Source of the DNA: Campylobacterales bacterium | GTDB taxonomy: Bacteria; Campylobacterota; Campylobacteria; Campylobacterales; Sulfurimonadaceae | DNA: 63,296 nt | Reading direction: 5' to 3' | Assembly (NCBI GenBank): GCA_026390135.1 | Contig: JAPLGN010000037.1 | Span: 1 to 63,296, forward strand | In this document: positions 32,732-62,860 of the stretch, in pieces | How positions within the stretch are numbered: position 1 is the stretch's first letter | How the letters are laid out: each line of letters starts with the position of its first letter | The notes under the pieces: model-generated | The model's input: the letters and a program-made list of their open reading frames with translations, nothing else | What the model was told of the DNA's origin: nothing | Databases searched by the model: none | Made by a program: the position numbers and the translations under genes

Positions 32732-33370
32732 TTACGCCAAAAGCATATTCCCGCCCACTAAGACAGAAATAACACCCACCGTAGCGAAAACTCGTCGCAC
32801 GTTTTTTATATTGGTCAAAATATCTTTATTGATCCACGAAATAACCAAACCAAAACTAAAGAACACCACCATAACTCCCGCAATAAATGCGAGTATCATC
32901 GTAAAATCAACAACTTGTCCATGGAGCACACCAAGTGTGACCAGCATACCACGTACACCGCCAATTCCCATCAAAACACCTACCCCGAATGCGGATGTAG
33001 TCGTAGAAGATTCATGTTGGTGTTCATTCCCAAACCAGATATGTACGTGTTTTTTGTGTTCATGGGTATGAGTTTTTAAATGGATTTTATTGGCAAAAAC
33101 CATGTAAAGCAGATAGATTCCAATGGAAAGAATCACACTCGATGCAATCACATCTCCATAAGACAAGAATGCTTCGCTCAGTGTGTAATGTTGCAGAATT
33201 TTTGCAAACATAAAAAGCATTATCCCATGCCCTACCGCAAAAGCACCAACAATCAAAAATGTTTTTTTGGCCTCTTTACCGATTGAAAAATCAGCAATAG
33301 CAGTCAAATGGTCGGGACCGAACGCGTGTAAAATACCGTACCAAAAAATTACAATTAAACCCAGTTCCAT
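32732..33370 (-). CDS. Nickel/cobalt permease (NicO/UreH-like)
   Basis: A 212-aa integral membrane protein with about six TM segments. The first helix contains HAFGPDHLTAIADFSIG, the HxxxxDH nickel motif of NiCoT/NicO/UreH transporters, followed by FAVGHG. A His-rich loop (HLKTHTHEHKKHVHIW) sits mid-protein. It stands immediately upstream of hypB and would feed Ni to hydrogenase. The start at 33370 has GAGG 6 nt before it. A palindromic TetR-type operator lies 18 bp upstream (33389-33402), identical to that of hydA. Confidence 0.85.
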   Translation of the reverse strand: MELGLIVIFWYGILHAFGPDHLTAIADFSIGKEAKKTFLIVGAFAVGHGIMLFMFAKILQHYTLSEAFLSYGDVIASSVILSIGIYLLYMVFANKIHLKTHTHEHKKHVHIWFGNEHQHESSTTTSAFGVGVLMGIGGVRGMLVTLGVLHGQVVDFTMILAFIAGVMVVFFSFGLVISWINKDILTNIKNVRRVFATVGVISVLVGGNMLLA

Positions 33371-33388
33371 AGCATCCTCATTCATTAT

Positions 33389-33402
33389 GAATAATCATTC
33401 AG
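33389..33402 (-). promoter_or_regulatory. Predicted TetR operator upstream of the nickel permease
   Basis: The minus strand reads TGAATGATTATTCA, identical over 14 bp to the site upstream of hydA (49223-49236) and one or two bases from the site before the TetR gene. It ends 18 nt before the chosen start codon. Confidence 0.65.
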
Positions 33403-33566
33403 ATTTAAAGATTATAGGAGAATAGGATAAAAGCAAACTAAAATTTTCACTTTCTTATATAATTTTAGGACATGTTTTATTTTTTTACTTCACTAGCGTT
33501 ACACATCTTTCCCCGCTCCCCTTCTAATCGCTATAATTCGATTACTATTTTAATCAAAGGTATCCA

Positions 33567-34328
33567 TTGCGTTGCATCTTCTCATTTTTATTACTCGTAT
33601 GCACTTCTACTTCTCTATTTGCTCTTGTCAGTATTGCACCCGTTGATATTGGTTCCAATAGCGGCTTGAGCGGAAATGTTTCAGGGGCACTAAGCTCCAA
33701 GAGCGGCAATACCCAAAAAGATGAATACTCACTTGGGCTACGATTGCAATACGATCAAGGAATCGATTATTTAGCGTGGGGAATATTTACCTACGATTAT
33801 GGAAAATCCAGCGGTACAAAGAACGAAGACAAAAGTTATGCCCACTTGCGCTACATACACGCCATAGACGAGAGTAAAAACTGGATAGGTGAATTCTTTG
33901 TGCAGTCCGAGCAAGACAAGATCAAAGATATTAATGCCCGTTCACTTGCGGGAACCGGTCTGCGTTGGCGATTTCTTAATTCCGATGAATGGGGAAAAGG
34001 GTATATCGCAATGGGCGGTTTAATCGAAAAGATTAACTATTCCCATCCTGAACTCAATCCAAATGAAGAAAATTATCGTCTCAACAGCTATCTGGCCTAC
34101 ACCAAGAGCTTTATGAACTCCTCCAAACTAAATTATTTAGGCTATTTCCAACCAAAATTCAATGACCCCTCCGATTATGTTTCATCGCAGACAGCAGAGC
34201 TTATCATACCGATCTACGGCACATTAAATTTGAGTTTGACTGCAAAATACGGCTATGACAGTAATCCGGCACTAGGAATTAAAAAAGAGGATACCGCCTA
34301 TATAACAAGTTTGCTCTGGACTTTTTAA
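33567..34328 (+). CDS. DUF481 family outer-membrane-like protein
   Basis: A 253-aa exported protein with a TTG start preceded by AAAGG at 6 nt. The signal peptide is about residues 1-19. The rest consists of alternating amphipathic strands (YSLGLRLQYDQG, YLAWGIFTYDYG, AHLRYIHAIDES, LTAKYGYDSNPA) ending in LLWTF, as in DUF481 beta-barrels. Function unknown; possibly a porin-like or structural outer-membrane protein. It seems monocistronic. Confidence 0.75.
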   Translation: MRCIFSFLLLVCTSTSLFALVSIAPVDIGSNSGLSGNVSGALSSKSGNTQKDEYSLGLRLQYDQGIDYLAWGIFTYDYGKSSGTKNEDKSYAHLRYIHAIDESKNWIGEFFVQSEQDKIKDINARSLAGTGLRWRFLNSDEWGKGYIAMGGLIEKINYSHPELNPNEENYRLNSYLAYTKSFMNSSKLNYLGYFQPKFNDPSDYVSSQTAELIIPIYGTLNLSLTAKYGYDSNPALGIKKEDTAYITSLLWTF

Positions 34329-34368
34329 CGCATTCTTTACCGTTGCATCTTTGGCTACAATATACTTT

Positions 34369-35061
34369 ATGAAACAACCTCATCACTGTATTTATTGCCA
34401 GCATGCACTCTATTCACTCAACGATGGAATGGTCAAATGCTCGGCATGCAAAAAAAAGTACAGTCCGTCGAAAGTCACTAAAATACTTCGGCTTATCGAA
34501 TTGTTTTGTACAGATGAAAATGCGTTGAGTGCGTCTAAAATTACCGAGATAAGCTATGCTACTGCCCTCACCTATTATCAGAATTTTCGTAAACTCATCG
34601 CACAGCAGTGTGAAGAGCAATACCATTTACATCGCACCCAAGAATCCCAATACGAAGAATATCTCTATCTCGAAAAGTCAAAACGTCATGACAAAAAAGC
34701 TATTTTCGACTCCCATAATTTTTTGACATTTGCATATGGTGAACATGTGTACACGATTCTAATGCCCTCGTTAGGAGTCTATAAACAACAGTTTTTAGAG
34801 GACAATCTCGAAGACGTTTATACGAAAGAGTTTTCGAAATTCATGCGAAGCAGTAAAATCATTAAAATATCCGAACACGATAACGCGATAAAGCGTTTTT
34901 GGTACTATTTTGAAAACTTCATCATGACCTTTAAAGGGGTTAGTGATGAGTTTTTTCCCTATTATCTCAAAGAGGCGGAATTCAAATTCAACACACCTAT
35001 GATGAAGCGCAGCGAGGTTCTTGAACAACTTTATTTTCGACCTTCCATTGAAAATCTTTAA
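34369..35061 (+). CDS. IS1595-like transposase-derived protein, probably inactive
   Basis: A 230-aa protein with an N-terminal zinc ribbon (CIYC at about 7-10, CSAC about 26-29, KKYS) as in IS1595/ISXO2 transposases. A middle segment has FDSHNFLTFAYG and the C-terminal region FWYYFENFIMTFKGVSDEFFPYYLKEAEFKFN corresponds to the usual FWxxxKxxLxxxxGVSxEHFxxYLKExExRxN. The usual Glu before FW is Lys here (IKRFW). No terminal inverted repeats are seen. It looks like a domesticated or decayed element. The start at 34369 is the second ATG. Confidence 0.55.
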   Translation: MKQPHHCIYCQHALYSLNDGMVKCSACKKKYSPSKVTKILRLIELFCTDENALSASKITEISYATALTYYQNFRKLIAQQCEEQYHLHRTQESQYEEYLYLEKSKRHDKKAIFDSHNFLTFAYGEHVYTILMPSLGVYKQQFLEDNLEDVYTKEFSKFMRSSKIIKISEHDNAIKRFWYYFENFIMTFKGVSDEFFPYYLKEAEFKFNTPMMKRSEVLEQLYFRPSIENL

Positions 35062-37885: not shown

Positions 37886-39285
37886 AACGTAAAAAAAGTA
37901 AAATAGATCTCAAAAAGGAAGAGACTCAGGCGCAAATTTTACGTGAAAAAGCTGAACTCTTGACACCTGAGAATATCCCTGTTTTCACCAAAGATCTTTC
38001 ACCTGAAAAGATGCAGGACCTATTACAAGAATTTCACATTCATCAAATCGAGCTTGAGATGCAAAATGAGGAATTGCGCCACAGACAAGCTGAACTTGCC
38101 GCGGAAAAAGAACGCTATTTCGACATCTATGAGCTGGCACCGGTAGGATATTTTACGCTTAATCAAGAGGGTGAGATTCTCCAAGTGAACCTCACAGCCA
38201 CCATCTTGCTCGGCACCCCGAAAAGTTCTCTTATCCATTATTCGCTAGAGAAATTTATCCTCAATAAAGATAAAGATATCTTCTATTTTCACCGTAAAAA
38301 GCTCCTTTCAACTCGTCAGACACAATCGTGCGAGGTACGGATGGTGAAGAGCGATGGGTCACAATTTTGGGCGCAATTAGACTCACAACATTCAAAAAAT
38401 GGTAAGAACGGATTAGTCTTAAATGTTGTGCTTCACGATATCACCCAGCGTAAAAATGCACAAAGAGACCTAGCCATTGCCGCCATTGCCTTCGAATGCC
38501 AAAATGGAGTCCTTATTACTGATCCCAAGGGAATCATACTGCGTGTCAACAAATCCTTTACACGGATAACAGGCTACACTGCACAAGAGGCCATAGGTCA
38601 ATCCGTTTCGATTCTGAAATCAGACCGTTATCCTGAATCGTTTTTTGCTCGTCTGTGGTCAAAATTAAATCAGAATGAAAGATGGCAGGGTGAGATATGG
38701 AATAAACGTAAAAATGGGGAAAATTATGCTGAGCTTTTAAGCATTACAGCCGTAAGAAGTGAAGGAGCTGAAGTAACCCATTATGTCGGTAATTTTTCGG
38801 ACATCACCGAAGACAAAGAAGCTGAAGCCACCATTCAGCTTCTCGCCTACTATGACTCCCTCACAGGATTGCCTAATCGTCGCTTATTGCAAGACAGGAT
38901 TACTCAAGCCATCGGTGCTTCAGCTCGAAGTGGGGAATATGGCGCTGTCCTTTTTGTCGATGTGGACCATTTTAATACACTTAACGACACTTGCGGTCAC
39001 AGTGTGGGCGATTTATTGCTCGTAGATATTGCACAGCGCCTACGCGCCAATGTCCGTCAGTCCGATACCGTAGGACGTCACGGAGAGGATGAATTCGTTA
39101 TCCTGTTAGACAATCTAAGCAGCGAGATGACAGAAGCTGCTACTATGGCACAACAGCTGAGAGAAAAACTGCTCGAGGCAATGAAAAAACCTTTTAATCT
39201 CAATGGCGTAGAATACCATTGTAAGATTGGTGTCGAAATAAACTTACTGAGCAAAGATAATACGACCAAAGATTTTCTCAGATAG
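37882..39285 (+). CDS. PAS-PAS-GGDEF protein, degenerate and C-terminally truncated
   Basis: A 467-aa protein with a long N-terminal coiled region (QIELEMQNEELRHRQAEL), a PAS (about 75-195), a second PAS/PAC (about 205-310) and a GGDEF domain (from LAYYDSLTGLPNRRLLQDRI). The active-site loop is HGEDEF rather than GGDEF. The domain stops at KIGVEINLLSKDN, before its last helix, and no EAL domain follows. It overlaps the convergent peptidase gene by 8 bp. It is probably inactive as a cyclase, perhaps a c-di-GMP or protein-binding partner of the CheB-CheR protein. Confidence 0.8.
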   Translation: MKRKKSKIDLKKEETQAQILREKAELLTPENIPVFTKDLSPEKMQDLLQEFHIHQIELEMQNEELRHRQAELAAEKERYFDIYELAPVGYFTLNQEGEILQVNLTATILLGTPKSSLIHYSLEKFILNKDKDIFYFHRKKLLSTRQTQSCEVRMVKSDGSQFWAQLDSQHSKNGKNGLVLNVVLHDITQRKNAQRDLAIAAIAFECQNGVLITDPKGIILRVNKSFTRITGYTAQEAIGQSVSILKSDRYPESFFARLWSKLNQNERWQGEIWNKRKNGENYAELLSITAVRSEGAEVTHYVGNFSDITEDKEAEATIQLLAYYDSLTGLPNRRLLQDRITQAIGASARSGEYGAVLFVDVDHFNTLNDTCGHSVGDLLLVDIAQRLRANVRQSDTVGRHGEDEFVILLDNLSSEMTEAATMAQQLREKLLEAMKKPFNLNGVEYHCKIGVEINLLSKDNTTKDFLR

Positions 39286-39838
39286 GAGGAGTTTTTGAAG
39301 AAGGATCAAGACTAGTAGGATATTTAAACGTGTCAATAATTTCTTGGAGCGTACTCGCCGTCTCTTTGGAAATGATCTCGACCTCACAGCTTTTGAGATA
39401 GTTTATAATCGCTCCAATATAGCTATCAAACAGACGGGTAAGCTCTGGACTTAGTCCCATACGAAACGAAATAGTTGCAGGGACAATTCCTAATACGTTT
39501 GATTTTGGAAGCGGTTTTCCCATCAGCTCGATCATGTCCAGACACTGCATAACCCCCACTTCATGCGCACCGCCGCTGTTAAGTCCATACCCGCTAAGCT
39601 CGTAGGACGGAATATTGTAGATACTCCCTGGAGTGTCGTCGAGATTGATCGTATCGAGAATAATGATATGATCGTTCTCCAAAAAAAGATTGAGAAGATT
39701 AATTCCCTCGACTCCTCCGTCGATGATCGAAACGTGATGACTCAATGTATAATTAGCACGCAAGTACGCTGCCGCATAGATAGCGATTCCGTCATCTTCT
39801 TCGAGCACATTTCCGACACCTAGAATAACAATCGACAT
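39278..39838 (-). CDS. Hydrogenase maturation peptidase (HyaD/HybD family)
   Basis: Removes the C-terminal tail of the Ni-loaded large subunit. The 186-aa protein has the family opening VILGVGNVLEEDDGIAIY, ILDTINLDD and GGAHEVGV, giving candidate metal ligands Asp16, Asp62 and His92. It is the better preserved of two adjacent peptidases and is the likely processor of HydB, whose sequence has a tail after DPCIACAVH. It lies 3 bp after the second peptidase and is the last gene of the minus-strand hydrogenase accessory run. Confidence 0.85.
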   Translation of the reverse strand: MSIVILGVGNVLEEDDGIAIYAAAYLRANYTLSHHVSIIDGGVEGINLLNLFLENDHIIILDTINLDDTPGSIYNIPSYELSGYGLNSGGAHEVGVMQCLDMIELMGKPLPKSNVLGIVPATISFRMGLSPELTRLFDSYIGAIINYLKSCEVEIISKETASTLQEIIDTFKYPTSLDPSSKTPPI

Positions 39839-39841
39839 AGA

Positions 39842-40399
39842 TTAAAATCCTTTACCGTGTTCGATACTGGGGTTGGCAAACTGATCGAGTATCTCATCCA
39901 ATTCCATTATCTCCTCTTTACGGATACTGTTGATCCCGCTTTTTGCCAGTTCACTCACAATAACATCGATATACTCCAGCCATTTTTCGCGCAAGGCAGG
40001 AGTGACCCCAACATGAACGCTGATAATGTCTTCAGGGACAATACTCACCATCGTCGTTTGCGCACAATGGTTTGCCATCGAACAAATTTGGAGCATTTCG
40101 GTAATTTCCACTTCATTGGCGGTTTTTTTAATCCCTTGGTTGGCAATGAGTTCGTCACCGCTGAGGACATCGATACTTCCTACGATTTTACCATCATCAG
40201 AACTGGTATTGACGATCAACACAACCTCATATTCTTGCAACAAAGGCATCAAACCAAACCCAAGCGTCCCCCCATCGACAATATCCAATGCAGGTTCAAA
40301 CGTAAAATTTTCTTTGAGGTATTTACCCGCATAAAGCCCAATCCCCTCATCCATAAAAAATGCGTTCCCTGATCCTATCAATGCAACTTTAGCGTTCAT
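39842..40399 (-). CDS. Second hydrogenase-peptidase paralog with altered metal ligands
   Basis: A 185-aa relative of the peptidase next door. It keeps IGSGNAFFMDEGIGLY (Glu18), but the Asp of the second ligand motif is Asn (LIVNTSSDD, Asn64). The region corresponding to the His motif reads KTANEVEI (Asn95). Two of three expected nickel-sensing ligands therefore appear to be lost. It may be an inactive partner or a binding protein. It precedes the active paralog by 3 bp. Confidence 0.75.
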   Translation of the reverse strand: MNAKVALIGSGNAFFMDEGIGLYAGKYLKENFTFEPALDIVDGGTLGFGLMPLLQEYEVVLIVNTSSDDGKIVGSIDVLSGDELIANQGIKKTANEVEITEMLQICSMANHCAQTTMVSIVPEDIISVHVGVTPALREKWLEYIDVIVSELAKSGINSIRKEEIMELDEILDQFANPSIEHGKGF

Positions 40400-43266: not shown

Positions 43267-43393
43267 AAATAGTTCTTCTCCCGTATCGTGAGCGATACGG
43301 GTAGCTTTAGGGGGTTGTAGGGACATTTGTCCCTGCCACTTTGCGGGCTCAGTGTGCCCCTTGGGTATTGCTCGGAAAGTGTGTAACGTTAGT

Positions 43394-52254: not shown

Positions 52255-53122
52255 TCAGCCTCTTCTCTAAGCGCGGTATGTGAAATGATTTTGCAATACC
52301 CGCCATGGTTAAATAACTTCGCTTGGAAATCCCTACCGGAACATCCTGAGGAATTGACATATTGGTTTTGGTTTCAAACATATTGGTTCGGGGAAAATCA
52401 GGTTCCGTACATCCAAAACATGGCGATCCCGCTCTCGTTTTAGAACTGACATCGTTCCATAATATCTTGTTGCAGGAGGCATGGGTCATAGGTCCCCGAC
52501 ACCCTTGCTTGTAAAACAAACACCCCTCTTTGGTTCCGAAATGATCCGAATCGACTTTCCACTCAAAATATTCATTTCGAGTACACCCATGATGCGCCAA
52601 ATAGGAATAAAGCTCTTTAGGACGATGTAGCTCATCCACTGCTATGGGTTTGTTATCAGCAATCATACGAAGGGTATATCCCATCCACTCCGGATGCATC
52701 GGACAGCCTGAAAGATTAATGAGCTTTGGACTGCTGGCGAAAGGACCTTTTGGCTCTTTTTCATCAAATCCAAGCCCCGTAATATGTTCGGGATCGCTGT
52801 GCTTAAACATTCCCCCGAAACTCGCACAGCTTCCGGCGGCGATCACATACTTCGCATGGCTGCCATAATGGCCAACCAATGTTTCCAAACTCGTCCCGAC
52901 ACGCTCCATACGAGGGTCATATGCTCCCTCAAAAATGAGAATATCACATTCATGCACACAGGTCGAAATCTCTTCGAGTGTATAGGTAGAGGGCAAAAGA
53001 GAATGGTAGAGAAATTCAAAGGTTTCTAAGACGTAAAGGAGATGAGGGTAATTTAGAAAAGAGTGGGTGTTACCGTTACAAGTCACCCCTTGGAGCCATA
53101 AAACTTTTAAGCGTGGTTTCAT
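52238..53122 (-). CDS. [NiFe] hydrogenase small subunit, HupU-like (group 2), soluble
   Basis: The 294-aa Fe-S subunit without a Tat signal or a C-terminal anchor, so the enzyme stays in the cytoplasm. It begins with VLWLQGVTCNGNTHSF. Cluster ligands lie in AAGSCASFGG, LSGCPMHPEWM, HHGCTRNEYFEW, GCLFYKQGCRGP and PCFGCTEPDFP. It overlaps the TetR gene by 4 bp and the large subunit gene by 17 bp, so one operon reads tetR, small, large. Assignment to a sensor or a metabolic group 2 enzyme cannot be made by eye. Confidence 0.88.
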   Translation of the reverse strand: MKPRLKVLWLQGVTCNGNTHSFLNYPHLLYVLETFEFLYHSLLPSTYTLEEISTCVHECDILIFEGAYDPRMERVGTSLETLVGHYGSHAKYVIAAGSCASFGGMFKHSDPEHITGLGFDEKEPKGPFASSPKLINLSGCPMHPEWMGYTLRMIADNKPIAVDELHRPKELYSYLAHHGCTRNEYFEWKVDSDHFGTKEGCLFYKQGCRGPMTHASCNKILWNDVSSKTRAGSPCFGCTEPDFPRTNMFETKTNMSIPQDVPVGISKRSYLTMAGIAKSFHIPRLEKRLIDDNT

Positions 53123-53733
53123 TGTTTTCGCAGAGCATTGTAGATGTTCTCTGCTATAGCGGTTTCGTATTCATTCAATGGTTTCGTGAGGACCTCTTCT
53201 CCATTTAAAAACACCATTCCTCCTAAATAACCCATAAAAAGACCCAATGCGCTAAAGAAATCTTGATCTTTTAACTCTCCGCTTTGCACCCCCTCATCGA
53301 AAAAGAGCATCAATTCTGTTACAAAACCGGAGACGCATACCATTCCGGTACACTCTTTTGTAAATATTTCACGATTGGAAAGAAAAACACGTAAAAAATA
53401 TTCAATGAGCTCAGGGCGCTCACGTGCGATGCTAAAATACATGTGGACAATCATAGTAACTTTTTCTTTTACCGATGCATCCGACATGTTAATTTCTTTT
53501 AGTTTCTCACCTAAAATAGTTGAAATGTACAGCATTAACTCTTTTGCCAGTTGATCTTTTGACGAAAAATAATTATAGAAATTTCCGACACTCATCCCCA
53601 ATTTTAGAGCAATAGCCGGCATCGTTGTCGTATAAAACCCTTCTGTCGAGAAAAGCTTTAATGCTGTTTGCATAATAGACGTTTTACGATCTTCTTTTTT
53701 TGTCGTGGCGGGTTTTTCTGGAATATTCTTCAT
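53119..53733 (-). CDS. TetR/AcrR-family regulator heading the soluble hydrogenase operon
   Basis: A 204-aa repressor. The N-terminal helix-turn-helix (about 20-65) shows the TetR signature: TALKLFSTEGFYTTTMPAIALKLGMSVGNFYNYFSSKDQLAKEL, in pieces. A helical ligand domain follows (FLRVFLSNREIF, FVTELMLFFDEGVQSGEL). I place the start at 53733 because the frame's upstream ATG (53772) overlaps a palindromic operator; the downstream ATG gives a normal TetR N terminus. The operator at 53758-53771 implies self-regulation. The gene overlaps the hydrogenase small subunit by 4 bp. Confidence 0.85.
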   Translation of the reverse strand: MKNIPEKPATTKKEDRKTSIMQTALKLFSTEGFYTTTMPAIALKLGMSVGNFYNYFSSKDQLAKELMLYISTILGEKLKEINMSDASVKEKVTMIVHMYFSIARERPELIEYFLRVFLSNREIFTKECTGMVCVSGFVTELMLFFDEGVQSGELKDQDFFSALGLFMGYLGGMVFLNGEEVLTKPLNEYETAIAENIYNALRKQ

Positions 53734-53757
53734 TTTCAATGTCTGCTTTCTATCACA

Positions 53758-53771
53758 TGAATGATCGTTCA
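53758..53771 (-). promoter_or_regulatory. Predicted TetR autoregulatory operator
   Basis: The minus strand reads TGAACGATCATTCA (flanking ATG...AT extends it to 16 bp). It matches the hydA and nickel permease sites at 12 of 14 positions. It lies between the TetR gene and the divergent response regulator gene (start 53822) and could affect both. Confidence 0.65.
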
Positions 53772-54696: not shown

Positions 54697-54709
54697 AGAG
54701 TATATTGAG

Positions 54710-55507
54710 CTAATAAGATTTGATATAAGAAGGCAAGTGTCCCTGAAGATGAACAACATCTCCAAATACGATTACCGCAGGGCTTTGTGCCCCACTCGCA
54801 GCTTCATCAAAATTTTGCAGAGTCGTCACGATCGTCCTTTGATTCGGACGCGATGCATTCGAAACAATAGCGGCGGGTAAATCACCATTGACGCCCAGTG
54901 CCAAAGCAGCTTCTTTGATCTCTCTTGCAACACTCAGCCCCATGAGGATAACAGTCGTATGATTGGGCAGTAGCAAGAGCGGAAGCCAGTCATTGTTAAA
55001 CTTTGAATCTTTTAAATGTGCCGATACCACCGAAAAACTTGCTGCGTATCCTCGTGCGGTCGGTGGAATACCTGCACAGGCGCTCCCTGCCACCGAAGAA
55101 GATATTCCGGGAATCACATCGACTTCGTACCCTCGTTCGATCAGATAAAGCGCCTCTTCTGTTCCCCGTCCGAAGATATAGGGATCGCCGCTTTTGAGTC
55201 TGGCGACATCCAAACCTTGGTTGGCATATGTGGCAATCAACGCATTGATCTCTTCTTGGGAGATACTGTGACAGCTTTTTACTTTTCCCACGTAAATTTT
55301 ATGACTCTTTTCTGGAATCAATTGTAAAATCTCTGCACTGATAAGATGATCATACAAGATAACCGATGCTTCGGTAATAATCCTTGCAGCTTTGAGTGTC
55401 AGCAGTTCGACGTCGCCTAGTCCGCAGCCTACAAGATATACTTTTCCTTTTTTATGTGTAACTTCATCAGCAGACTCGTCTACTAACGTTTTGTCATTTA
55501 TTTTCAT
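54710..55507 (-). CDS. cobA: Uroporphyrinogen-III C-methyltransferase
   Basis: SAM-dependent bis-methylation of uroporphyrinogen III to precorrin-2, the first step toward siroheme. The 265-aa protein starts with VYLVGCGLGDVELLTLKA, has ILYDHLIS, ARLKSGDPYIFGRGTEE and VIPGISSSVAGSACAGIPPTARG, typical of SUMT. It is the last gene of the sulfate assimilation operon, supplying the cofactor of the sulfite reductase. No CysG/Met8-type ferrochelatase is nearby. It overlaps the class V aminotransferase by 4 bp. Confidence 0.94.
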   Translation of the reverse strand: MKINDKTLVDESADEVTHKKGKVYLVGCGLGDVELLTLKAARIITEASVILYDHLISAEILQLIPEKSHKIYVGKVKSCHSISQEEINALIATYANQGLDVARLKSGDPYIFGRGTEEALYLIERGYEVDVIPGISSSVAGSACAGIPPTARGYAASFSVVSAHLKDSKFNNDWLPLLLLPNHTTVILMGLSVAREIKEAALALGVNGDLPAAIVSNASRPNQRTIVTTLQNFDEAASGAQSPAVIVFGDVVHLQGHLPSYIKSY

Positions 55508-56808
55508 TCGAGCCTCCTTGTTAATTTTTTAATTGCAGCGATTAAGGCATCTACATCCTCAATCGTCTGTGAATAATGGATAGTGATACGAAGCCAACCC
55601 GGTTTAAAAGCCAGCAACTCATCATCACCCAACCCTAATAGGTCGTGTCCATAAGGTCCCGCACACGAACACCCAGCGCGTGTTTGAAATCCCTCTTCAT
55701 CCGATAAGAACGCGCACAATACGTAAGGGTCAACATTATGAATATTAAACGATACGATACCGATATTTTCTGCATTTCGACATCCATAACACTCAGATCC
55801 CGGAATCGTTCGAAGCTCTTTTACGAGATGTGAATACAATATTTTTTTAGTCGATGCGATCCATTCAAATCCCAATTCATTACGCAGCTGATACGCCAAT
55901 GCAGCACGAATCAATTGTAAAATCCCAGGGGTTCCAGCATCCTCACGGTCCTCGATTTCATCGACAAATGTATGGCTCTTACGGCTTACATAGCTTACCG
56001 TTCCTCCCCCTGCAAACGTAGGAGAATTCTCTGCGTCAAACAGATTTTTTCGAATAGCAAGCAATCCACATGATCCAGGGCCGCCTAGAAGTTTATGTGG
56101 TGAAAAGACCATCGCATCATACAGTTCGCACGGTATATTTCTATACGGTGACGATGCGGCGGCGTCAAAACAAACCGTTGCTCCGTAACGTCGTAACAAT
56201 GCCGAAATTTCTGTATATGGCGTAATCGTTCCCGTCACATTTGAGGCGATGCAAAACGTACCGATGATTTCACGATCTTTATTGGCTCGTAATATCCATT
56301 CTAATTCTTCTAAATCCACCAATCCATTCTCGTTCAGACCAATACGTACCGTTTCACACAAGGCTTCGCGATAACTGATTTCATTGGAATGATGTTCATA
56401 CGGTCCTACGATGACTAGCGGTAACTTCGCCGTATCTAACCCAAGATAACGTGCCCGTGTTGCAGGAGGAATATACAATCCCAAAATTTCTTGCAACCGC
56501 TTTACCGCAGCCGTCGCACCGCAACCACTAGGAATAATAGCGAATCCGTCATCCAATTCTAACAGCGTTTTCAAATGTTCGCGTGCCTGACGGTAATAAC
56601 TGTCCGTTTTGGCCGCCATTGACGCCTCTTTGGAATGGGTGTTTGCATACGTTTCAAGGACTTCGCGAATACGCTCTTCGATAGGCTCGTATGCTAGACC
56701 CGACGCCGTATAATCAAAATAATGTTTTTTATGTGTCCCAATCGTCTTGCCGATTATCTGGGAATATTTGTCGCCGGCCTCAAGAAGCGGTCGGAATAGT
56801 TGGCTCAT
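55504..56808 (-). CDS. Class V aminotransferase (cysteine desulfurase-like)
   Basis: A PLP enzyme of 434 aa with a SufS/NifS-like fold: HYFDYTASGLAYEPIEE, FAIIPSGCGATAA, CFDAAASSPY and the PLP lysine in VFSPHKLLGGPGS. The C-terminal part has CSCAGPYGHDLLG with a Cys pair. It may be a cysteine desulfurase or related lyase. It overlaps the sulfite reductase gene by about 29 bp and lies before cobA, linking it to sulfur assimilation. The MSQLF start at 56808 is used because GGAGAAG is nearby; the frame is open upstream. Confidence 0.75.
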   Translation of the reverse strand: MSQLFRPLLEAGDKYSQIIGKTIGTHKKHYFDYTASGLAYEPIEERIREVLETYANTHSKEASMAAKTDSYYRQAREHLKTLLELDDGFAIIPSGCGATAAVKRLQEILGLYIPPATRARYLGLDTAKLPLVIVGPYEHHSNEISYREALCETVRIGLNENGLVDLEELEWILRANKDREIIGTFCIASNVTGTITPYTEISALLRRYGATVCFDAAASSPYRNIPCELYDAMVFSPHKLLGGPGSCGLLAIRKNLFDAENSPTFAGGGTVSYVSRKSHTFVDEIEDREDAGTPGILQLIRAALAYQLRNELGFEWIASTKKILYSHLVKELRTIPGSECYGCRNAENIGIVSFNIHNVDPYVLCAFLSDEEGFQTRAGCSCAGPYGHDLLGLGDDELLAFKPGWLRITIHYSQTIEDVDALIAAIKKLTRRLE

Positions 56809-58366
56809 GACGATACTTCTCCAATAAAAAATTTCCAAAATCACGGCTTTGACTGGACTCATACTCCTGAATCAAGGATTCAATCAGAGGTGCGACCTCC
56901 TCCGAAGTGACCTTGACACCGGTTTTCACGGCAAAACGGCTTTGTTCTCCTTCGAGATGCCCTCCGACGATCAGATCAAACCCTTTGAATTTTTCTTCAT
57001 CACGTTTGACAATCGATCCGACAAATCCGAGATCGACGATGTGCGGATGGGCACAGGCATTGGGACATCCGTTAATACTAATACTGACAGGCTCGTTAAA
57101 ACCTTTAAATCGACTTTTCAAATGCGCCACAACCTCAATCGCAAGATTTTTGGTTTCACTCACCGCAAACTTACAAAAATTTAGTCCCGTACAAGCCAGA
57201 GTCCGTGCTTCAAAAACCGACGGATTTGCCTCCAATCCCAATGCTGCTTCCAGTGTCTCCGTAAAGGCTTTGGTCGCCTCTGCTGGAACTCCTTGCACAA
57301 CAATGTTTTGCGTCGTTGTCAGTGAAATTCCCTCTGCACCGTAAAATTCGAGGATATTCCCCAATGAAAGTAATTTTTCACCGCCGATACATCCGCTGGT
57401 AATCGCATATCCGATAGTGTTGTATCCCTCTTTTGTACTCTCAAATATTCCAAAATGACTCCGACGAGGATACGGGGTAAACGCTGTATTGTCATATACA
57501 TCGAACGTCACGCCCGAATCTTTTTCAAGTTCGTTCACAAAACGCTCAACACCCCAATCCTCTATCAGATGTCCTAATCGTGCTTTTAATCGGTTATCAC
57601 GTCGTCCATAATCACGGTAAATTTTAGCCACCGACTGGGCGATTGCAACTACATCTTTACGCTGAATATATCCGATATGATCCGCGATACGGCGATTGCT
57701 TGCCTGCCCGCCTCCGACGCTGATACTGAATGCAATCTCACCATTTTGGCGTTTAACCGCCGTAAAGGTCAAATCTTGAACTTCATGCGAAAGACAATGC
57801 TTACTGCACCCGCTCACCCCAACCTTGAACTTTCGAGGAAGATTGGAAAACGCTCTATTCTCTCGGTACAAATCATTCAATGCATCGACCAGATCACGGA
57901 CATCATCGACTTGATCTTTATCAATACCGTTTACCGGACAGCAGACGATATTACGCGGACAATCTCCTGCGGCCTCGATGGTACTAAGTCCAACGGCAGC
58001 CAAGCGGGCGAAAATTTGTGGAAGATCCGTCACTTTGATCCAGTGAAATTGGATGTCTTGGCGTGTTGTCAAATCCGCCGTATCCCGTGCCAACTCTTTG
58101 GATATTTTCCCGATCTCTGCTAACTGCTCGCGATTGAGATAGCCACCTTCTACTTTAATACGAAGCATAAAATAAAGAGTCTCATCTTCAGGACCTTGAA
58201 GGTTTTTATTCTGCGTATACAAACCATACCATTTAAAACGGTCAATATCGTCTGGGTCGATTGTCTCCCCGTTTTGGGCATAACGGGCAATATCGTCCAA
58301 AACATCCAATCCATCTTTTTCGCTTTTGATTCGCTCAACACGCTGGGCTTTTGTTTCTGAAGCCAT
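56780..58366 (-). CDS. Siroheme nitrite/sulfite reductase (assimilatory sulfite type)
   Basis: Six-electron reduction of sulfite to sulfide with siroheme and a 4Fe-4S cluster. The 528-aa protein has the ferredoxin-like halves (TRQDIQFHWIKVTDLPQ, GDCPRNIVCCPVNGIDKD). The siroheme-Fe-S Cys motifs are LACTGLNFCKF (C-x5-C) and NGCPNACAH (C-x3-C). The operon (cysDN, cysH, cobA) argues for sulfite as substrate. Start at 58366 next to cysN. Confidence 0.92.
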   Translation of the reverse strand: MASETKAQRVERIKSEKDGLDVLDDIARYAQNGETIDPDDIDRFKWYGLYTQNKNLQGPEDETLYFMLRIKVEGGYLNREQLAEIGKISKELARDTADLTTRQDIQFHWIKVTDLPQIFARLAAVGLSTIEAAGDCPRNIVCCPVNGIDKDQVDDVRDLVDALNDLYRENRAFSNLPRKFKVGVSGCSKHCLSHEVQDLTFTAVKRQNGEIAFSISVGGGQASNRRIADHIGYIQRKDVVAIAQSVAKIYRDYGRRDNRLKARLGHLIEDWGVERFVNELEKDSGVTFDVYDNTAFTPYPRRSHFGIFESTKEGYNTIGYAITSGCIGGEKLLSLGNILEFYGAEGISLTTTQNIVVQGVPAEATKAFTETLEAALGLEANPSVFEARTLACTGLNFCKFAVSETKNLAIEVVAHLKSRFKGFNEPVSISINGCPNACAHPHIVDLGFVGSIVKRDEEKFKGFDLIVGGHLEGEQSRFAVKTGVKVTSEEVAPLIESLIQEYESSQSRDFGNFLLEKYRHEPTIPTAS

Positions 58367-58376
58367 TCGTTACTCC

Positions 58377-59783
58377 TTATGTAACTATTTGTGCATTCCA
58401 ATGAGGGAAATGACGTCGAACAAGGGCGTTGAATTCTACCTCGAACTCGGACGCTCCACCTACTTTTTTAGCCTCTTTTTGGGTACTGCCGGTAATCATT
58501 CCCGCAGCAACCGTATTGTTGGTAATTTTGTCAATCAGGATAAATCCTCCCGTTTGACGATTTTCTTCATACGTATCAAATACCAAAGATGAGCCCAACA
58601 CTAAACGAACTGAACCAATGTCATTGAGTCCAAATTCATGAGCAACATGTCGGACCTGCGTATTGACATCGACACGATAATCAATCCCCTCACCTGCAGC
58701 GGAGGTAACCGTTGAGCCTCTTTTAAACAGATAGCTTTTCCCTAAATGAAAAGGCTCTTCATCCATCCAAACGAGATTTGCCGTAATTGCATCCGAGACA
58801 CTGATTGGTTCACCCGTTTTGATGATTATATTTCCACGGCTGATGTCGATCTCTTCATTCAGGGTCAACGTTATCGCTTGCGCAGTGGACGCTGATTCCA
58901 AATCACCGTCATACGTCACAATCGCTTTGATCGTAGCATTTTTCCCCGATGGCAATACCGTTATACTCTCACCGACACCGATACTTCCCGAAGCAATCGT
59001 CCCGGCAAATCCTCGAAAATCAAGATTAGGACGGTTGACATACTGTACTGCCATTCGAAACGGTGCATCCGGCGATGGTGCAGACAAAGGAACCTCTTCT
59101 AAAAGCTCTATTAATGTCTTACCCTCATACCAAGGGGTATGAACACTGCGTGTAACAACGTTATCCCCCTCCAGCGCAGACATCGGTACCGAATAAATTT
59201 TCTCTATCCCAAGTTCTTTTGCAAATGCACGATACTGTGTATCAATTTTCTCAAACACATCCCGATCATACTTCAAAAGATCCATTTTGTTAATCGCGAC
59301 AACAACATTGCGAATCCCCAAAAGACGAACAATAAACGAGTGGCGGCGCGTTTGCGTCACAATCCCGTATCGGGCATCGATCAAGATTATCGCCAAATCT
59401 GCCGTCGAGGCTCCCGTCGCCATGTTGCGCGTATACTGCTCATGCCCAGGGGTATCCGCAATGATGAATTTGCGCTTATCGGTCGAAAAATAACGATACG
59501 CTACGTCGATCGTAATCCCTTGTTCCCGTTCGCTTTGCAACCCGTCCACGAGGAGTGCCAGATCGATTCTATCACCCGTCGTCCCCGATTTTTTACTGTC
59601 ATTTTTAATGCTTTCGAGCTGATCCTCGAAAATCATTTTGGAATCGTGCAAAAGTCTCCCGATTAAGGTGCTTTTACCATCATCGACACTGCCGCACGTT
59701 ATAAAACGCAACAGCTCTTTGTGTTCGTGTTCTTGCAGATAGCTTTGAATATTTGAAGCTATCAAATCCGACTGATGTGCCAT
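58377..59783 (-). CDS. cysN: Sulfate adenylyltransferase subunit 1 (GTPase)
   Basis: GTPase subunit that drives APS formation by CysD. The 468-aa protein has the P-loop CGSVDDGKSTLIGRLL, switch II ADTPGHEQYTRNM and NKMDLLKYD. Two beta-barrel domains follow. There is no APS kinase (CysC) fusion, consistent with the APS-type reductase at 60891. The ATG overlaps the cysD stop by 1 bp. Confidence 0.96.
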   Translation of the reverse strand: MAHQSDLIASNIQSYLQEHEHKELLRFITCGSVDDGKSTLIGRLLHDSKMIFEDQLESIKNDSKKSGTTGDRIDLALLVDGLQSEREQGITIDVAYRYFSTDKRKFIIADTPGHEQYTRNMATGASTADLAIILIDARYGIVTQTRRHSFIVRLLGIRNVVVAINKMDLLKYDRDVFEKIDTQYRAFAKELGIEKIYSVPMSALEGDNVVTRSVHTPWYEGKTLIELLEEVPLSAPSPDAPFRMAVQYVNRPNLDFRGFAGTIASGSIGVGESITVLPSGKNATIKAIVTYDGDLESASTAQAITLTLNEEIDISRGNIIIKTGEPISVSDAITANLVWMDEEPFHLGKSYLFKRGSTVTSAAGEGIDYRVDVNTQVRHVAHEFGLNDIGSVRLVLGSSLVFDTYEENRQTGGFILIDKITNNTVAAGMITGSTQKEAKKVGGASEFEVEFNALVRRHFPHWNAQIVT

Positions 59784-60689
59784 TAAAAATATCCTTCAAT
59801 TTTTTTCTTCTCCATAGAGCCTGCTTGATCGGCATCGATCAAACGACCTTGTCTCTCGCTCGTTTTGGTCAACAGCATCTCTTGAATAATGTCAGGAAGC
59901 GTCACTGCATCACTTGCAACTGCACCCGTCAACGGATAACATCCCAGCGTTCGAAAACGGACATTCTCGATAACAGGGATCTCGCCCTCTTCCAGAGGAA
60001 ACCGTTCGTCATCCACCATTATTTTAACCCCGTCACGTTCGACCACAGGTCTCGGCGCAGCAAAATAAAGAGGAACAAGAGGGATCCCTTCGAGATAAAT
60101 GTATTGCCAAATATCAAGCTCTGTCCAGTTGGACAACGGAAACACCCGTATACTCTCCCCTTTATGAATCCGCCCATTGTAAATATTCCACAATTCGGGA
60201 CGCTGTTTCTTAGGATCCACGATGGTTTTTGTCACGGAACGAATAAATCCGCTCTTTGGCACGACTTTTTTCTTCATCCCGTCGCGCTCCACCGAAAACA
60301 GCATCAAATTTATGCTCATTCAACGCCTGTTTAAGCCCCTCTGTTTTCATGATATCCGTGTAAACAGAACTCCCGTGTGTAAACGGGGTAACCCCTTTGG
60401 CAACTCCCTCAGGATTCACATGCGTCAACAGCGTCAACCCGAGTTCTTCGATACGTCGATCACGAAACTCGATCATCTCTTTAAATTTCCATGTCGTATC
60501 AACGTGCAAAAGTGGAAACGGTAACTTTGAAGGATAAAATGCCTTCAATGCCAAATGAAGCATCACAGAGGAATCTTTCCCGATAGAATAAAGCATCGCC
60601 GGATTTTCAAATTCAGCAATGACTTCACGCATAATATGGATCGATTCCGCTTCCAATACTTTAAGATGGGTCAGTCGTTCTTCAGTCAT
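59783..60689 (-). pseudogene. cysD: Sulfate adenylyltransferase subunit 2, frameshifted
   Basis: CysD makes APS from sulfate and ATP. The first frame (60689 to about 60219) has the N-terminal half: [26 protein letters not shown] and [20 protein letters not shown]. The second frame (about 60218 down to 59783) continues from [20 protein letters not shown] through [22 protein letters not shown] codon junction (RWDPKKQR) reads CGT-G-GAT here, so about two bases are missing near 60218. Both halves are otherwise normal. Either a sequence error or a real inactivation. Confidence 0.85.
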
Positions 60690-60701
60690 AGTATTTCCTT
60701 A

Positions 60702-60782
60702 TATAAACGCCAAAGGAATAAAATCCCTTTAGCTACGCTAGCCGCTTGGGCTACTAAAGCTTGCCTCATTACGAGGCAGATT
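60702..60782 (+). repeat. Dispersed hairpin repeat, family 2, copy 2
   Basis: About 80 bp, the inverted counterpart of the copy at 45408-45476. It shares AACGCCAAAGGAATAAAATC, CTACGCT and AAAGCTTGCCTC. It lies between cysH and cysD in the operon and contains the same two hairpins (CCAAAGG/CCTTT, GCCTC/GAGGC). Confidence 0.8.
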
Positions 60783-60795
60783 TTTTTATTAATAT

Positions 60796-60888
60796 TCATA
60801 CAAATAAGGCCCAGTCGGCCAAGTCCTCACGTTGCGACGCACAGTCGTCTCCGCATATTTGACGCAAAATCGCCAATAAAACAGTCAT
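60796..60888 (-). CDS. Possible 30-aa peptide after cysH
   Basis: A short frame beginning MTVLLAILRQICGDDCA, with GGAGG 6 nt before its ATG and 2 bp after the cysH stop, ending in a TGA before the repeat. It has two Cys and acidic residues. It may be a genuine small protein of the cys operon or a chance frame. I cannot tell by eye. Confidence 0.35.
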   Translation of the reverse strand: MTVLLAILRQICGDDCASQREDLADWALFV

Positions 60889-60890
60889 AA

Positions 60891-61598
60891 TCAGCCTCCG
60901 TTTCGGTGCAATCCGCACTCTTTATGTTCAGGGTTTTCCCACCACCATCGCCCGGCACGTATATCTTCTCCCTCTTTTACTGCGCGCGTACATGGGGCAC
61001 AGCCGATACTCGGATACCCAAGATCATGCAATGCGTTATAAGGGAGCTTATTTTCTTTGATAGCGTTCCAAACGTCTTCTTCGCTCCACTCGATTAACAA
61101 ATTGAGTTTAATCAATCCGTTTACTTGATCCCATTGCACCAGCCGCATCGTTTCACGCGTCGGAGACTGAGCACGTCGCAATCCGGTTATCCAGACATCC
61201 AATCCTTTTAATGCCCTTTGCAGCGGAGCGATTTTACGGACATGGCAGCACATTTTTCTATTTTCAATACTCTCACGAAATCCATTGATCCCTTGACGCT
61301 GATAAAGAATTTCAATATCCGCAGTATTGGGAAAATAGACATCAATCTTGATGCCATATTTTTTATTTGTCTGATCCATCACGGTATACGTCTCTTCGGG
61401 TAATCGTCCCGTATCAAGGGTAAAAATTTTAGCCTTTGGATTTTGTCGCAGCAGCAAATCGGTCAGGACCTGATCTTCCGCTCCAAAGCTCGTAGCTAAA
61501 GCGATCTTCTCTTTATAGGTTTGGGTAAAATATTCCAATATTTTCTCAATCGGTTCATTTTCAAACTCTCTGTTCAATACCTCAATCGTATGTTTCAT
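60891..61598 (-). CDS. cysH: APS reductase (assimilatory, Fe-S type)
   Basis: Reduces adenylylsulfate (APS) to sulfite. The 235-aa protein has LATSFGAEDQVLTDLL, FTLDTGRLPEETY and ITGLRRAQSPTR. The cysteines MCCHVRKIAPL and YPSIGCAPCTRAV form the CC...CxxC 4Fe-4S motif of APS-type enzymes, and the reactive KECGLH is at the C terminus. The start at 61598 is used because AGGAG lies 6 nt before it; it overlaps the DUF2061 gene end. Confidence 0.93.
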   Translation of the reverse strand: MKHTIEVLNREFENEPIEKILEYFTQTYKEKIALATSFGAEDQVLTDLLLRQNPKAKIFTLDTGRLPEETYTVMDQTNKKYGIKIDVYFPNTADIEILYQRQGINGFRESIENRKMCCHVRKIAPLQRALKGLDVWITGLRRAQSPTRETMRLVQWDQVNGLIKLNLLIEWSEEDVWNAIKENKLPYNALHDLGYPSIGCAPCTRAVKEGEDIRAGRWWWENPEHKECGLHRNGG

Positions 61599-61606
61599 CG
61601 TCACTC

Positions 61607-61837
61607 CTAAATTTGATAGTCGTTTTTGACCACCTTTATTCGTCCAAAATTTGTTTTCTCCCAAGCCCGCTCATGAAAATAATATAAAACCATCTTCGTA
61701 AAAACTTCAATCGATCCGATGGACAATGCCCAAATCAAATTGCCCGTAATAAAAAAAGCAATAACCATCGTATCAATCGTCCCTACCGTTCTCCAGGAGA
61801 CGGCTTTGAGTACACTGCGATAATGTTTGTCTCTCAT
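61607..61837 (-). CDS. DUF2061 membrane protein
   Basis: A 76-aa protein with a hydrophobic segment (MVIAFFITGNLIWALSIGSIEVFTKMVLYYF) and the DUF2061 pattern RSVLKAVSWRTVGTIDT plus YYFHERAWEK. The family is often encoded beside sulfate assimilation genes, but its role is unknown. The stop lies inside the RBS region of cysH and the start is 1 bp after cysK. Confidence 0.8.
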   Translation of the reverse strand: MRDKHYRSVLKAVSWRTVGTIDTMVIAFFITGNLIWALSIGSIEVFTKMVLYYFHERAWEKTNFGRIKVVKNDYQI

Positions 61838-61838
61838 C

Positions 61839-62771
61839 TCAATGACTCTCCACTGGAAACTCGTAAAGCTCCGTACTCAAATACCGCTCACCGGTATCGC
61901 ACAAAATCGTTACGATTGTTTTCCCTTTATTCTCAGGGCGAGCCGCGATTTTCCGTGCAGCGGCGACATTGGCACCTGAGGAAATTCCCACCAGAAGCCC
62001 CTCTTTTTTTGCTATTTCTCTCGAAGTCTCAAAAGCTTCCTCATTCGTGATCCGAATAATTTCATCATAAACTTTCGTATTGAGCACTTGCGGAATAAAT
62101 CCGGCTCCGATTCCTTGAATTTTGTGCGCTCCGGCTGGCTCTCCCGACAAAACGGGTGATGTATCCGGTTCTACGGCGATCACTTGAATATCAGGGTTAT
62201 AGCGTTTTAACACTTCCCCCACTCCTGTAATCGTTCCGCCAGTACCGACAGCAGCGACAAAAATATCTACTTTACCGTCTGTATCACTCCATATCTCTTC
62301 TGCCGTTGTTACTCTATGAATTTCGGAGTTATCCGGATTGTTAAACTGCTGTAACAAAACAGCATTTGGCACAGTTTGTGAGAGTTCCAATGCTTTTGCA
62401 ACTGCTCCCCCCATCCCCTTTGCAGGTTCAGTCAAAACGATTTGAGCCCCCAACGCCACTAAAAGCCGTCTACGTTCAAGACTCATGGAACTGGGCATTG
62501 TAAGAATCAATTTCAATCCAAGGTTTGCCGCCACACTCGCAAGAGCTATCCCGGTATTTCCACTCGTAGGTTCGACGATAACACTCTCCTGTGTAATCTC
62601 ACCTCGCGCTATTGCTTTGAGAATCATGTTGCTTCCGATTCGATCTTTAACCGATCCGGACGGGTTCATAAATTCGCATTTACCTAACAGTATGGTTTCA
62701 TTTTCTTCAAATTTCAGTTTCACCAATGGTGTATTACCGATTAACTCTGTAATATTGGCCGCTATTTTCAT
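61839..62771 (-). CDS. cysK: Cysteine synthase A
   Basis: PLP enzyme forming cysteine from O-acetylserine and sulfide. The 310-aa protein has ELIGNTPLVKL, the PLP lysine in NPSGSVKDRIGSNM, TSGNTGIALA, GTGGTITGVGEVLK and GIGAGFIPQVL. It is the first gene of the cys operon. A GGAGGG RBS precedes the ATG. A 14-bp palindrome similar to the TetR site lies 75 bp upstream. Confidence 0.96.
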   Translation of the reverse strand: MKIAANITELIGNTPLVKLKFEENETILLGKCEFMNPSGSVKDRIGSNMILKAIARGEITQESVIVEPTSGNTGIALASVAANLGLKLILTMPSSMSLERRRLLVALGAQIVLTEPAKGMGGAVAKALELSQTVPNAVLLQQFNNPDNSEIHRVTTAEEIWSDTDGKVDIFVAAVGTGGTITGVGEVLKRYNPDIQVIAVEPDTSPVLSGEPAGAHKIQGIGAGFIPQVLNTKVYDEIIRITNEEAFETSREIAKKEGLLVGISSGANVAAARKIAARPENKGKTIVTILCDTGERYLSTELYEFPVESH

Positions 62772-62846
62772 TGTTCCCTCCTTCTTTAGTAAAGACTCCT
62801 CGTGATGTAACTCACACCTAAAATCGCTTGATTAAAACAACATAAC

Positions 62847-62860
62847 TGAACGTTCATTCA
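62847..62860 (+). promoter_or_regulatory. Possible TetR-type operator upstream of cysK
   Basis: Reads TGAACGTTCATTCA, 13 of 14 positions equal to the site at the TetR gene (TGAACGATCATTCA). It is in the cysK / EAL-protein intergenic region. The distance to the cysK ATG (75 bp) differs from the three other sites. Confidence 0.5.

Follow-up and report, generated by a model that had tools for sequence, protein, structure and literature searches.

The window analysed here comprises positions 1 to 63,296 (63,296 nucleotides (nt)) of contig JAPLGN010000037.1 (assembly GCA_026390135.1) of a Campylobacterales bacterium from the family Sulfurimonadaceae. It carries a gene for a TetR-family regulator (tetR) directly in front of the small- and large-subunit genes of a cytoplasmic [NiFe] hydrogenase (SSU2 and LSU2), followed by the genes of an uptake hydrogenase (hydA onwards); a nickel permease gene (nicO) heads a hyp maturation operon, and cysK heads an operon for sulfate assimilation. 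We found that the palindrome TGAAYRNNYRTTCA is conserved in relatives upstream of hydA and nicO and is missing in nearly all examined hydA and nicO regions of genomes without TetR. TetR very probably governs hydA and nicO through this palindrome. Our overall proposal, to which we assign a probability of roughly 0.68, is that TetR would be a dedicated repressor of hydrogen oxidation in this branch of Campylobacterota, with SSU2-LSU2 as its likely H2 input.

The palindrome and its co-occurrence with TetR

A first-pass annotation of the window had listed four copies of a 14-bp palindrome, near nicO, hydA, tetR and cysK, as marks of a TetR regulon. All four exist (Table 1), the nicO copy one base from where it had been placed, at 33388–33401. 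As described there, the nicO and hydA copies have the same minus-strand sequence (TGAATGATTATTCA), and those of tetR and cysK match at 13 of 14 positions. The site is 24 nt from the start codon of tetR (ATG 53733), 20 nt from that of hydA (49202), 75 nt from that of cysK and 17 nt from the likely ATG of nicO at 33370 (inferred; the first open ATG is at 33385). In the window's own genome (1,874,820 bases, 56 contigs, 82% complete) the symmetric TGAAYRNNYRTTCA has exactly four matches, all within the window, compared with none for the reversed control, and the degenerate pattern TGAAYGWTYATTCA returns precisely the same sites. Since the patterns were written from the four sites, their recovery is by construction; what carries information is the absence of a fifth site. 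If four sites were scattered at random, the probability that all of them land in the window would be about 1.3e-6. The genome scan proposed along with the first annotation thus confines the exact matches to these four genes. Mismatch-tolerant counts barely exceed chance in the window (27 vs 17.25 expected, with 4 of 100 shuffles as high; 13 vs 7.55, with 8 of 100), and at up to two mismatches the genome contains 60 forward and 66 reverse matches, compared with 32 and 34 for the reversed control. Such near-matches are common genome-wide and therefore say little; the weight rests on the exact ones.

Relatives of TetR were taken as the best 80 of 322 loci from a scan of GTDB representatives (L054–L133). 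According to the record titles they span Sulfuricurvum, Sulfurimonas, Sulfurovum, Nitratifractor, Nitratiruptor, Poseidonibacter and others. The start of hydA could be located in 56 of these loci. Within 250 nt upstream of it, TGAAYRNNYRTTCA is found exactly in 53 loci, with at most one mismatch in 55 and with at most two in all 56; the corresponding fractions among 7,426 background windows of 250 nt from the same loci are 0.26%, 1.3% and 9.6%. When all 256 half-sites with the same core were compared at hydA, the runner-up reached only 10 of 56 loci. Visual inspection and column counts over the 53 hydA loci served to place the −10 boxes; in the counts, a TAnnAT element ends two bases before the site. 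The operator would therefore cover the expected transcription start of hydA. In 11 loci (L089, L096, L101, L102, L103, L108, L111, L114, L117, L125 and L126) two sites with at most one mismatch each precede hydA exactly 45 nt apart, an arrangement that possibly reflects cooperative binding.

Chance AT-rich palindromes would be compatible with the mismatch-tolerant counts of the window, which lie only slightly above shuffles, and with exact matches elsewhere in other genomes. Set against 53 of 56 hydA loci and the conservation of the site across several genera, this explanation is hardly credible; the background windows and the half-site controls speak against it, and for hydA and nicO it is refuted.

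The site also follows the regulator in its distribution. TetR matches were obtained in 83 of 151 genomes of a family sample (E ≤ 1e-10) and in 53 of 249 genomes of a phylum sample (E ≤ 1e-35 for TetR, E ≤ 1e-60 for LSU2). The matches of G020 and G142, 42% and 32% identical, were treated as non-orthologous. For hydA, 40 regions were chosen, mostly about 1.1–1.35 kb around or upstream of the gene: TetR-negative genomes with a hydA of at least 75% identity among the matches listed, five more at about 50%, and a selection of TetR-positive genomes, of which G006, G046 and G099 contribute two regions each. The set leaves out a third kind of match (frames of about 810 codons), and L135 (149 bases) was dropped as too short. 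Counting sites at any position of the region and with up to one mismatch, 26 of 28 regions from genomes with TetR or LSU2 have one (23 exact). The site is missing from L145, where G030 has a second copy of hydA, and from L159 of G135, a genome with TetR and no LSU2. None of the 11 regions from genomes without an orthologous TetR, G020 and G142 included, has the site. For nicO, 30 loci out of 73 genomes with a match were compared. All 21 loci from genomes with both TetR and LSU2 have the site (15 exact, six with one mismatch), and a TATAAT-like box mostly precedes it by a few bases; elsewhere it occurs in one of seven TetR-negative genomes and exactly in G135, and is absent from G142. A consensus promoter scan at nicO found nothing. 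Fisher tests of site against TetR give 5e-8 for hydA and 2e-5 for nicO, values that are over-optimistic because the genomes are related and not independent. These comparisons, together with the cysK sites described below, support the regulon suggested by the first annotation.

If the palindrome were bound by some other, unlinked regulator, the neighbouring TetR would be a bystander. DNA binding by TetR is itself a prediction, and similar palindromes are used by many TetR-type regulators. Nevertheless, this explanation is very unlikely. The sites are gone where TetR is gone; the sole exception, the nicO site of G132, comes from an assembly only 57% complete, in which tetR may simply be missing. 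Moreover, most loci of the window's genus have the site in the promoter of tetR itself.

Autoregulation, which had been suggested for TetR, holds in part. With at most one mismatch and within 250 nt, the site is found upstream of tetR in 13 of the 20 loci of the Sulfuricurvum block, taken to be the window's genus. Among the other 60 of the 80 loci it is found in five, and no shared palindrome beyond A/T-only half-sites was seen upstream of tetR there, so general autoregulation was rejected. The close relatives L054, L055 and L057 have a two-operator arrangement before tetR. In L054 and L055 about 120 nt separate the operators, of which the second in L055 has one mismatch; the window (at 53745–53771) lacks this intervening stretch and has a single operator. 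Since the longer open frame of tetR begins inside this operator, its start was taken as 53733.

The cytoplasmic hydrogenase and the neighbouring regulator

The tetR product is recognized by the TetR_N family (PF00440) with E = 1.7e-14 and 53.7 bits (cut-off 24). Its AlphaFold model is all-helical with a mean predicted local distance difference test (pLDDT) score of 83, and the top Foldseek matches are TetR-family structures.

SSU2 directly follows tetR in 75 of the 80 loci. Of the remaining five, L107 and L056 end about 125 and 630 nt past tetR, L080 continues straight to hydA and L058 to the cys operon, and in L123 none of the queried genes comes after tetR. In the phylum sample, all 50 LSU2-bearing genomes have tetR on the same contig and strand, 827–1321 nt upstream, which is about one gene. 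The operon described earlier as headed by tetR is thus conserved. Three genomes of that sample (G174, G059 and G184) have TetR without an LSU2 match at the cut-off; SSU2 and LSU2 are present in G174 at lower identity, and an unrelated gene takes their position in G059. The family sample contains 75 genomes with TetR and LSU2, eight with TetR only (including G020 and G142), three with LSU2 only and 65 with neither. In the three LSU2-only genomes (G035, G085 and G100) LSU2 lies at a contig end. In these samples LSU2 was thus not seen without TetR where the contig was long enough, and TetR is occasionally seen without LSU2. Such a one-way dependence is expected if LSU2 acts through TetR. Second LSU2-like matches are a distant one in G039 (31%) and a partial one in G056. 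In Sulfurimonas paralvinellae (L253, NZ_CP041407.1, 18895–44193) the tetR-SSU2-LSU2-hyd-hyp cluster is located on a 49.8-kb plasmid, and exact sites precede hydA as well as the gene in the nicO position.

No twin-arginine translocation (Tat) motif of the form RRxF[LIV] was found within the first 60 residues of 75 SSU2 reading frames, a set that includes the doubtful L080. The first cluster motif of SSU2 reads CNGN in the window; CxGN is found in 69 of 75 copies and CNAN in five, and one is truncated. From 67 LSU2 matches two were set aside (L080, a HydB match, and the truncated L130). All four metal-binding cysteines are kept (R[VI]CGIC and CSVC), and the 65 intact copies end FDxCSVCTx[HQ] without an extension, 52 with His and 13 with Gln. 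HydB of the window, unlike LSU2, carries a further C-terminal tail. At the Ile/Phe pair expected at the gas channel of a regulatory hydrogenase, inspection of the alignment by eye gave Ile at one position and Val at the Phe position. SSU2-LSU2 is sensor-like by its C terminus and its linkage; it is not a plain group 2b enzyme, as cluster motif and partner differ. The sensor-type C terminus and the inseparability from tetR in the sampled genomes were absent from the first-pass annotation and are the more interesting point.

A competing explanation retains the same regulon and lets TetR sense a signal of its own, such as a reduced-sulfur species, the thiol/redox state or a metabolite, via a pair of cysteines. 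SSU2-LSU2 would then be the first regulated enzyme and would provide carbon fixation with reductant, a role proposed for group 2d. C141 and C146 (217-aa numbering) are indeed kept in 77 of 77 aligned TetR sequences (three of the 80 have a gap), and in the predicted fold they are placed in a loop region of lower confidence. The pattern CxGxxCxS is present in 75 of 80 reading frames; four without CxGxxC (L056, L059, L096 and L120) are probably cut by stops or frameshifts. The pair is also kept in L058 and L080, both without SSU2-LSU2, and the membership of sulfate assimilation in the regulon points the same way. However, an enzyme that makes reductant should have no need of tetR directly upstream in 50 of 50 genomes, and LSU2, like the sensors HoxC and HupV, lacks a C-terminal extension. 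Passages of a study on Sulfurimonas denitrificans, moreover, report no H2 uptake in the soluble fraction (PMC4149538). We regard an independent signal as somewhat unlikely.

Sulfate assimilation and the gene map of the window

The cysH loci numbered 30, 18 of the window's genus and 12 others that were viewed with short flanks. In the genus a cysH-type match is present in 18 of 41 genomes, and the site is upstream in all 18 (15 exact, three with one mismatch). It starts 49–95 nt before cysK; in G104 it starts 231 nt before cysH, with tetR itself in front. All 18 genomes carry TetR or, in the case of G100, LSU2 at a contig end. No site was seen at two further cysH matches: L239, whose start coincides with a contig end, and the G082 paralogue L240 (44%). 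The 12 loci outside the genus gave no site, a result that is partly an artefact of the short flanks. With long flanks (20 regions and G027), an exact site was found 625–641 nt before cysK in group g11 (G027, G044 and G010) and 491 nt before cysK in group g16 (G063 and G058). In G027 another short open frame lies between site and cysK, and LSU2 and hydA flank the cys operon. The assignment of the g11 and g16 sites to the cys operon is less certain than that of the sites within the genus. G099 has a one-mismatch site at its cys genes, and the cys genes of five TetR-negative genomes have none.

The sulfur link had been called the weakest part of the regulon. Within the genus this does not apply (18 of 18), and, with the further sites in g11 and g16, the idea of an accident was dropped. 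The link is, however, lineage-specific, and most other TetR-positive genomes examined have no site. Sulfate assimilation appears to have joined the regulon in certain lineages only; that it belongs to the TetR regulon in the window's genus is likely.

Table 1. Genes and putative operators of the window.
Feature	Position	Strand	Remarks
tetR	53119..53733	minus	TetR-family repressor; likely start 53733 inferred, first open ATG 53772 inside operator
SSU2	52238..53122	minus	small subunit of cytoplasmic [NiFe] hydrogenase, no Tat motif; 4-nt overlap with tetR stop
LSU2	50944..52254	minus	large subunit; ends CSVCTTH-stop, no C-terminal extension
hydA	47965..49202	minus	uptake hydrogenase small subunit; two frames here, 48705–49202 and 47965–48789
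hydB	46197..47972	minus	uptake hydrogenase large subunit
cytochrome b subunit, uptake hydrogenase	45476..46186	minus	
HypF and HypF-like protein	41038..45421	minus	HypF 41038–43434, HypF-like protein 43394–45421
two hydrogenase maturation proteases	39278..40399	minus	39842–40399 and 39278–39838
nicO	32732..33385	minus	NicO-like nickel permease, heads hyp operon; Pfam NicO 19.1 bits, under the 27.7-bit cut-off
hypB, hypC, hypD, hypE-like, hypA	29020..32573	minus	downstream of nicO
cysK	61839..62771	minus	cysteine synthase A
genes after cysK	54710..61664	minus	cys names inferred from order and domains
cysH	60891..61664	minus	phosphoadenosine phosphosulfate (PAPS) reductase family
cysD-like	59783..60689	minus	PAPS-reductase family; split over two overlapping frames
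cysN	58377..59783	minus	EF-Tu-type GTPase
nitrite/sulfite reductase	56780..58366	minus	
class V aminotransferase	55504..56862	minus	
tetrapyrrole methylase	54710..55507	minus	
O-tetR, putative operator	53758..53771	minus	TGAACGATCATTCA; first base is the last T of a TATAAT −10 box (53776–53771)
O-hydA, putative operator	49223..49236	minus	TGAATGATTATTCA; directly 3' of a −10-like element
O-nicO, putative operator	33388..33401	minus	TGAATGATTATTCA; 9 nt after TATAAT (33416–33411)
O-cysK, putative operator	62847..62860	minus	plus strand TGAACGTTCATTCA, gene strand TGAATGAACGTTCA

On the minus strand, tetR-SSU2-LSU2 is followed by zeta-toxin/AAA-like and PNPOx-like genes (49546–50878) and then by hydA-hydB-cytochrome b-hypF-like-hypF-proteases; the other runs are nicO-hypBCDEA and cysK-cysH-cysD-cysN-sulfite reductase-aminotransferase-methylase. 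The zeta-like gene also occurs in L055, and in L054 and L057 the gap between LSU2 and hydA is only about 150 nt. The split of hydA over two frames is probably an assembly or sequencing frameshift; the open frame here has 283 codons, and most uptake-type relatives listed are unbroken with about 410–445 codons. A protein with a PemK/MazF-like toxin domain is encoded between hypF and the maturation proteases (40489–40932). The gene at 34351–35061, whose counterpart in S. paralvinellae is annotated as a transposase, is weakly IS1595-like here, below the cut-off. Its place between a maturation protease and nicO is conserved in three genera (identities of 56% and 48%). Rather than a mobile element, it may encode a domesticated zinc-ribbon protein belonging to the hydrogenase cluster.

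Proposed mechanism and comparison with known systems

Based on these data we propose the following mechanism. TetR would bind TGAAYRNNYRTTCA at or just past the −10 box and thereby block transcription of the hydABC uptake hydrogenase and of the nickel permease/hyp maturation operon. The position of the sites makes repression, as opposed to activation, very likely. In the window's genus, and probably in two other groups, TetR would also repress the operon for assimilatory sulfate reduction, and in the genus its own operon. SSU2-LSU2, presumably in contact with TetR, most likely reports H2 to it, so that the regulon would open in the presence of H2. With neither a Tat motif nor a C-terminal processing peptide, the enzyme looks like an H2 sensor, and we consider it the probable H2 input to TetR. 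The reason for co-inducing sulfate assimilation would be that cells growing on H2, in place of sulfide or thiosulfate, have to produce reduced sulfur themselves.

Several observations weigh against this mechanism. SSU2 is without the CGGC first cluster motif of the sensor HoxB, having CxGN or CNAN in its place as in the hydrogenase Huc; the D-x-C of LSU2 lacks the proline (DPC in 0 of 65 copies), and 13 of the 65 copies end in Gln. TetR and some sites persist without SSU2-LSU2: G104 has the site before cysH and no hydA or LSU2 match, G059 an exact site at hydA, G135 (without LSU2) an exact site at nicO and none at hydA, and in L080/G007 tetR stands directly before hydA. TetR can thus work, or at least persist, without SSU2-LSU2, and may have an input of its own. 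Ten of 11 other TetR-positive genomes with long flanks have no cys site, nine of them from group g2 (taken as Sulfurimonas) and the tenth being G034, whose only site is that of nicO; G099 is the eleventh. The scarcity of sites before tetR outside the genus, the nicO site of the TetR-negative G132 and the inflated Fisher values also count here. Many unrelated matches had been named at the outset as a reason to abandon the regulon. The own genome has none, whereas exact TGAAYRNNYRTTCA matches do lie elsewhere in other genomes of the family. Three TetR-positive genomes (one to five contigs) have 5 (G051), 4 (G062) and 5 (G025) of them, and by coordinates only 3, 2 and 2 are at hydA, nicO or cysK. 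Three TetR-negative genomes have 6 (G016), 0 (G053) and 1 (G091), none near their hydA or nicO, and the six of G016 are a further point against the proposal. The reversed controls gave 0, 3 and 2 matches in the former three genomes and 4, 1 and 4 in the latter.

One specific form of the mechanism is a one-piece H2 switch, in which SSU2-LSU2 would dock on TetR and its Fe-S clusters would pass electrons from H2 to C141/C146, freeing the DNA. We consider this form doubtful. If true, H2 alone would release the repressor, and neither a kinase nor a small-molecule ligand would be needed; bacteria would then have one more route from H2 to gene expression besides kinase relays and cyclic di-GMP-type systems, and the role of the cytoplasmic hydrogenase of Campylobacterota would be settled. 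A natural one-component H2-responsive repressor would also serve as an H2 biosensor. The putative operator would also tie energy source (H2), nickel supply and, in some lineages, sulfate assimilation into one switch, a sensible arrangement for cells switching back and forth between H2 and reduced sulfur.

Among known TetR-family proteins, FadR of Bacillus subtilis is close in fold. Its operator half-site, presumably TGAATGA, resembles the half of the TGAAYRNNYRTTCA palindrome, and we know of no conserved Cys pair in FadR. It is among the best fold matches (3whb, 3whc), with about 20% identity over the aligned fold; unlike the role proposed here, it binds acyl-CoA (title of 3whc) and controls fatty-acid genes. 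On the hydrogenase side, SSU2 shares CxGN with the small subunit of Huc. Huc, the group 2a enzyme of Mycobacterium smegmatis, is a catalytic high-affinity enzyme, and no pairing of it with a TetR is known to us. It is the best PDB sequence match for both subunits (7utd, 7uur, 'Hydrogenase-2').

Among the closest known systems is HupUV/HoxBC (group 2b), likewise a cytoplasmic [NiFe] hydrogenase without an export motif, whose large subunit ends right after CxxCxxH and whose genes adjoin a regulator gene, as do those of SSU2-LSU2. HupUV/HoxBC sense H2 with the HoxJ/HupT kinase and the HoxA/HupR regulator. In the Cupriavidus necator locus a sigma-54 dependent regulator, the regulatory hydrogenase subunits and an ATP-binding protein are encoded in succession (presumably hoxA, hoxB, hoxC and hoxJ). 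HoxC of C. necator and HupV of Azospirillum end FDPCMVCTVH without an extension, and LSU2 too stops without one; its identity to the HupV-type protein encoded next to HupU in Azospirillum is 27.9%. HoxC and HupV are known as H2 sensors, and their neighbours are annotated as regulatory hydrogenase small subunit and HupU. SSU2-LSU2 differs from group 2b in having a one-component TetR as conserved partner (no search for histidine kinases was made at the loci; in some close relatives a response-regulator-like gene diverges from tetR), in the first cluster of SSU2 (CxGN vs CGGC) and in the L2 motif of LSU2 (DVC vs DPC).

Judged only by gene position and by the descriptions in passages of the literature, SSU2-LSU2 very probably corresponds to the Campylobacterota group 2D (PMC5401914) or Group 2b Hup (PMC7952632). 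Suden_1437 of S. denitrificans, according to a passage of PMC4149538, lies beside HydAB (Suden_1435/1436). In such excerpts the group 2d or 'Group II' enzyme is reported as a source of reductant for the reductive tricarboxylic acid cycle or a possible H2 sensor; for Sulfurimonas, a sensor or a low-H2 enzyme is considered and the role left open (PMC7952632; PMC4584964), and for Nautilia profundicola an 'H2-sensing (Group 2)' hydrogenase is listed together with an uptake hydrogenase whose gene numbers adjoin (PMC2628731). S. denitrificans grows on H2 without reduced sulfur (PMC4149538), and its hydrogenase activity is said to be thiosulfate-repressed (PMC6682613). Its cytoplasmic hydrogenase is transcribed, yet the soluble fraction takes up no H2 (PMC4149538), as expected of a sensor and not of a bulk catalyst. 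The role of this enzyme in sulfur- and hydrogen-oxidizing Campylobacterota is termed speculative or in need of elucidation in print (PMC4584964; PMC7952632); a TetR partner and a putative operator mapped at the uptake hydrogenase make the debate between sensor and reductant source open to simple experiments. The literature passages on this hydrogenase do not name a TetR regulator, an operator or a regulon, and no report of a TetR-hydrogenase regulator was found in the excerpts searched, which does not prove its absence from print. H2 sensing by the enzyme is thus an old suggestion, whereas the TetR partner, the operator and the regulon are new here, so far as the literature was searched.

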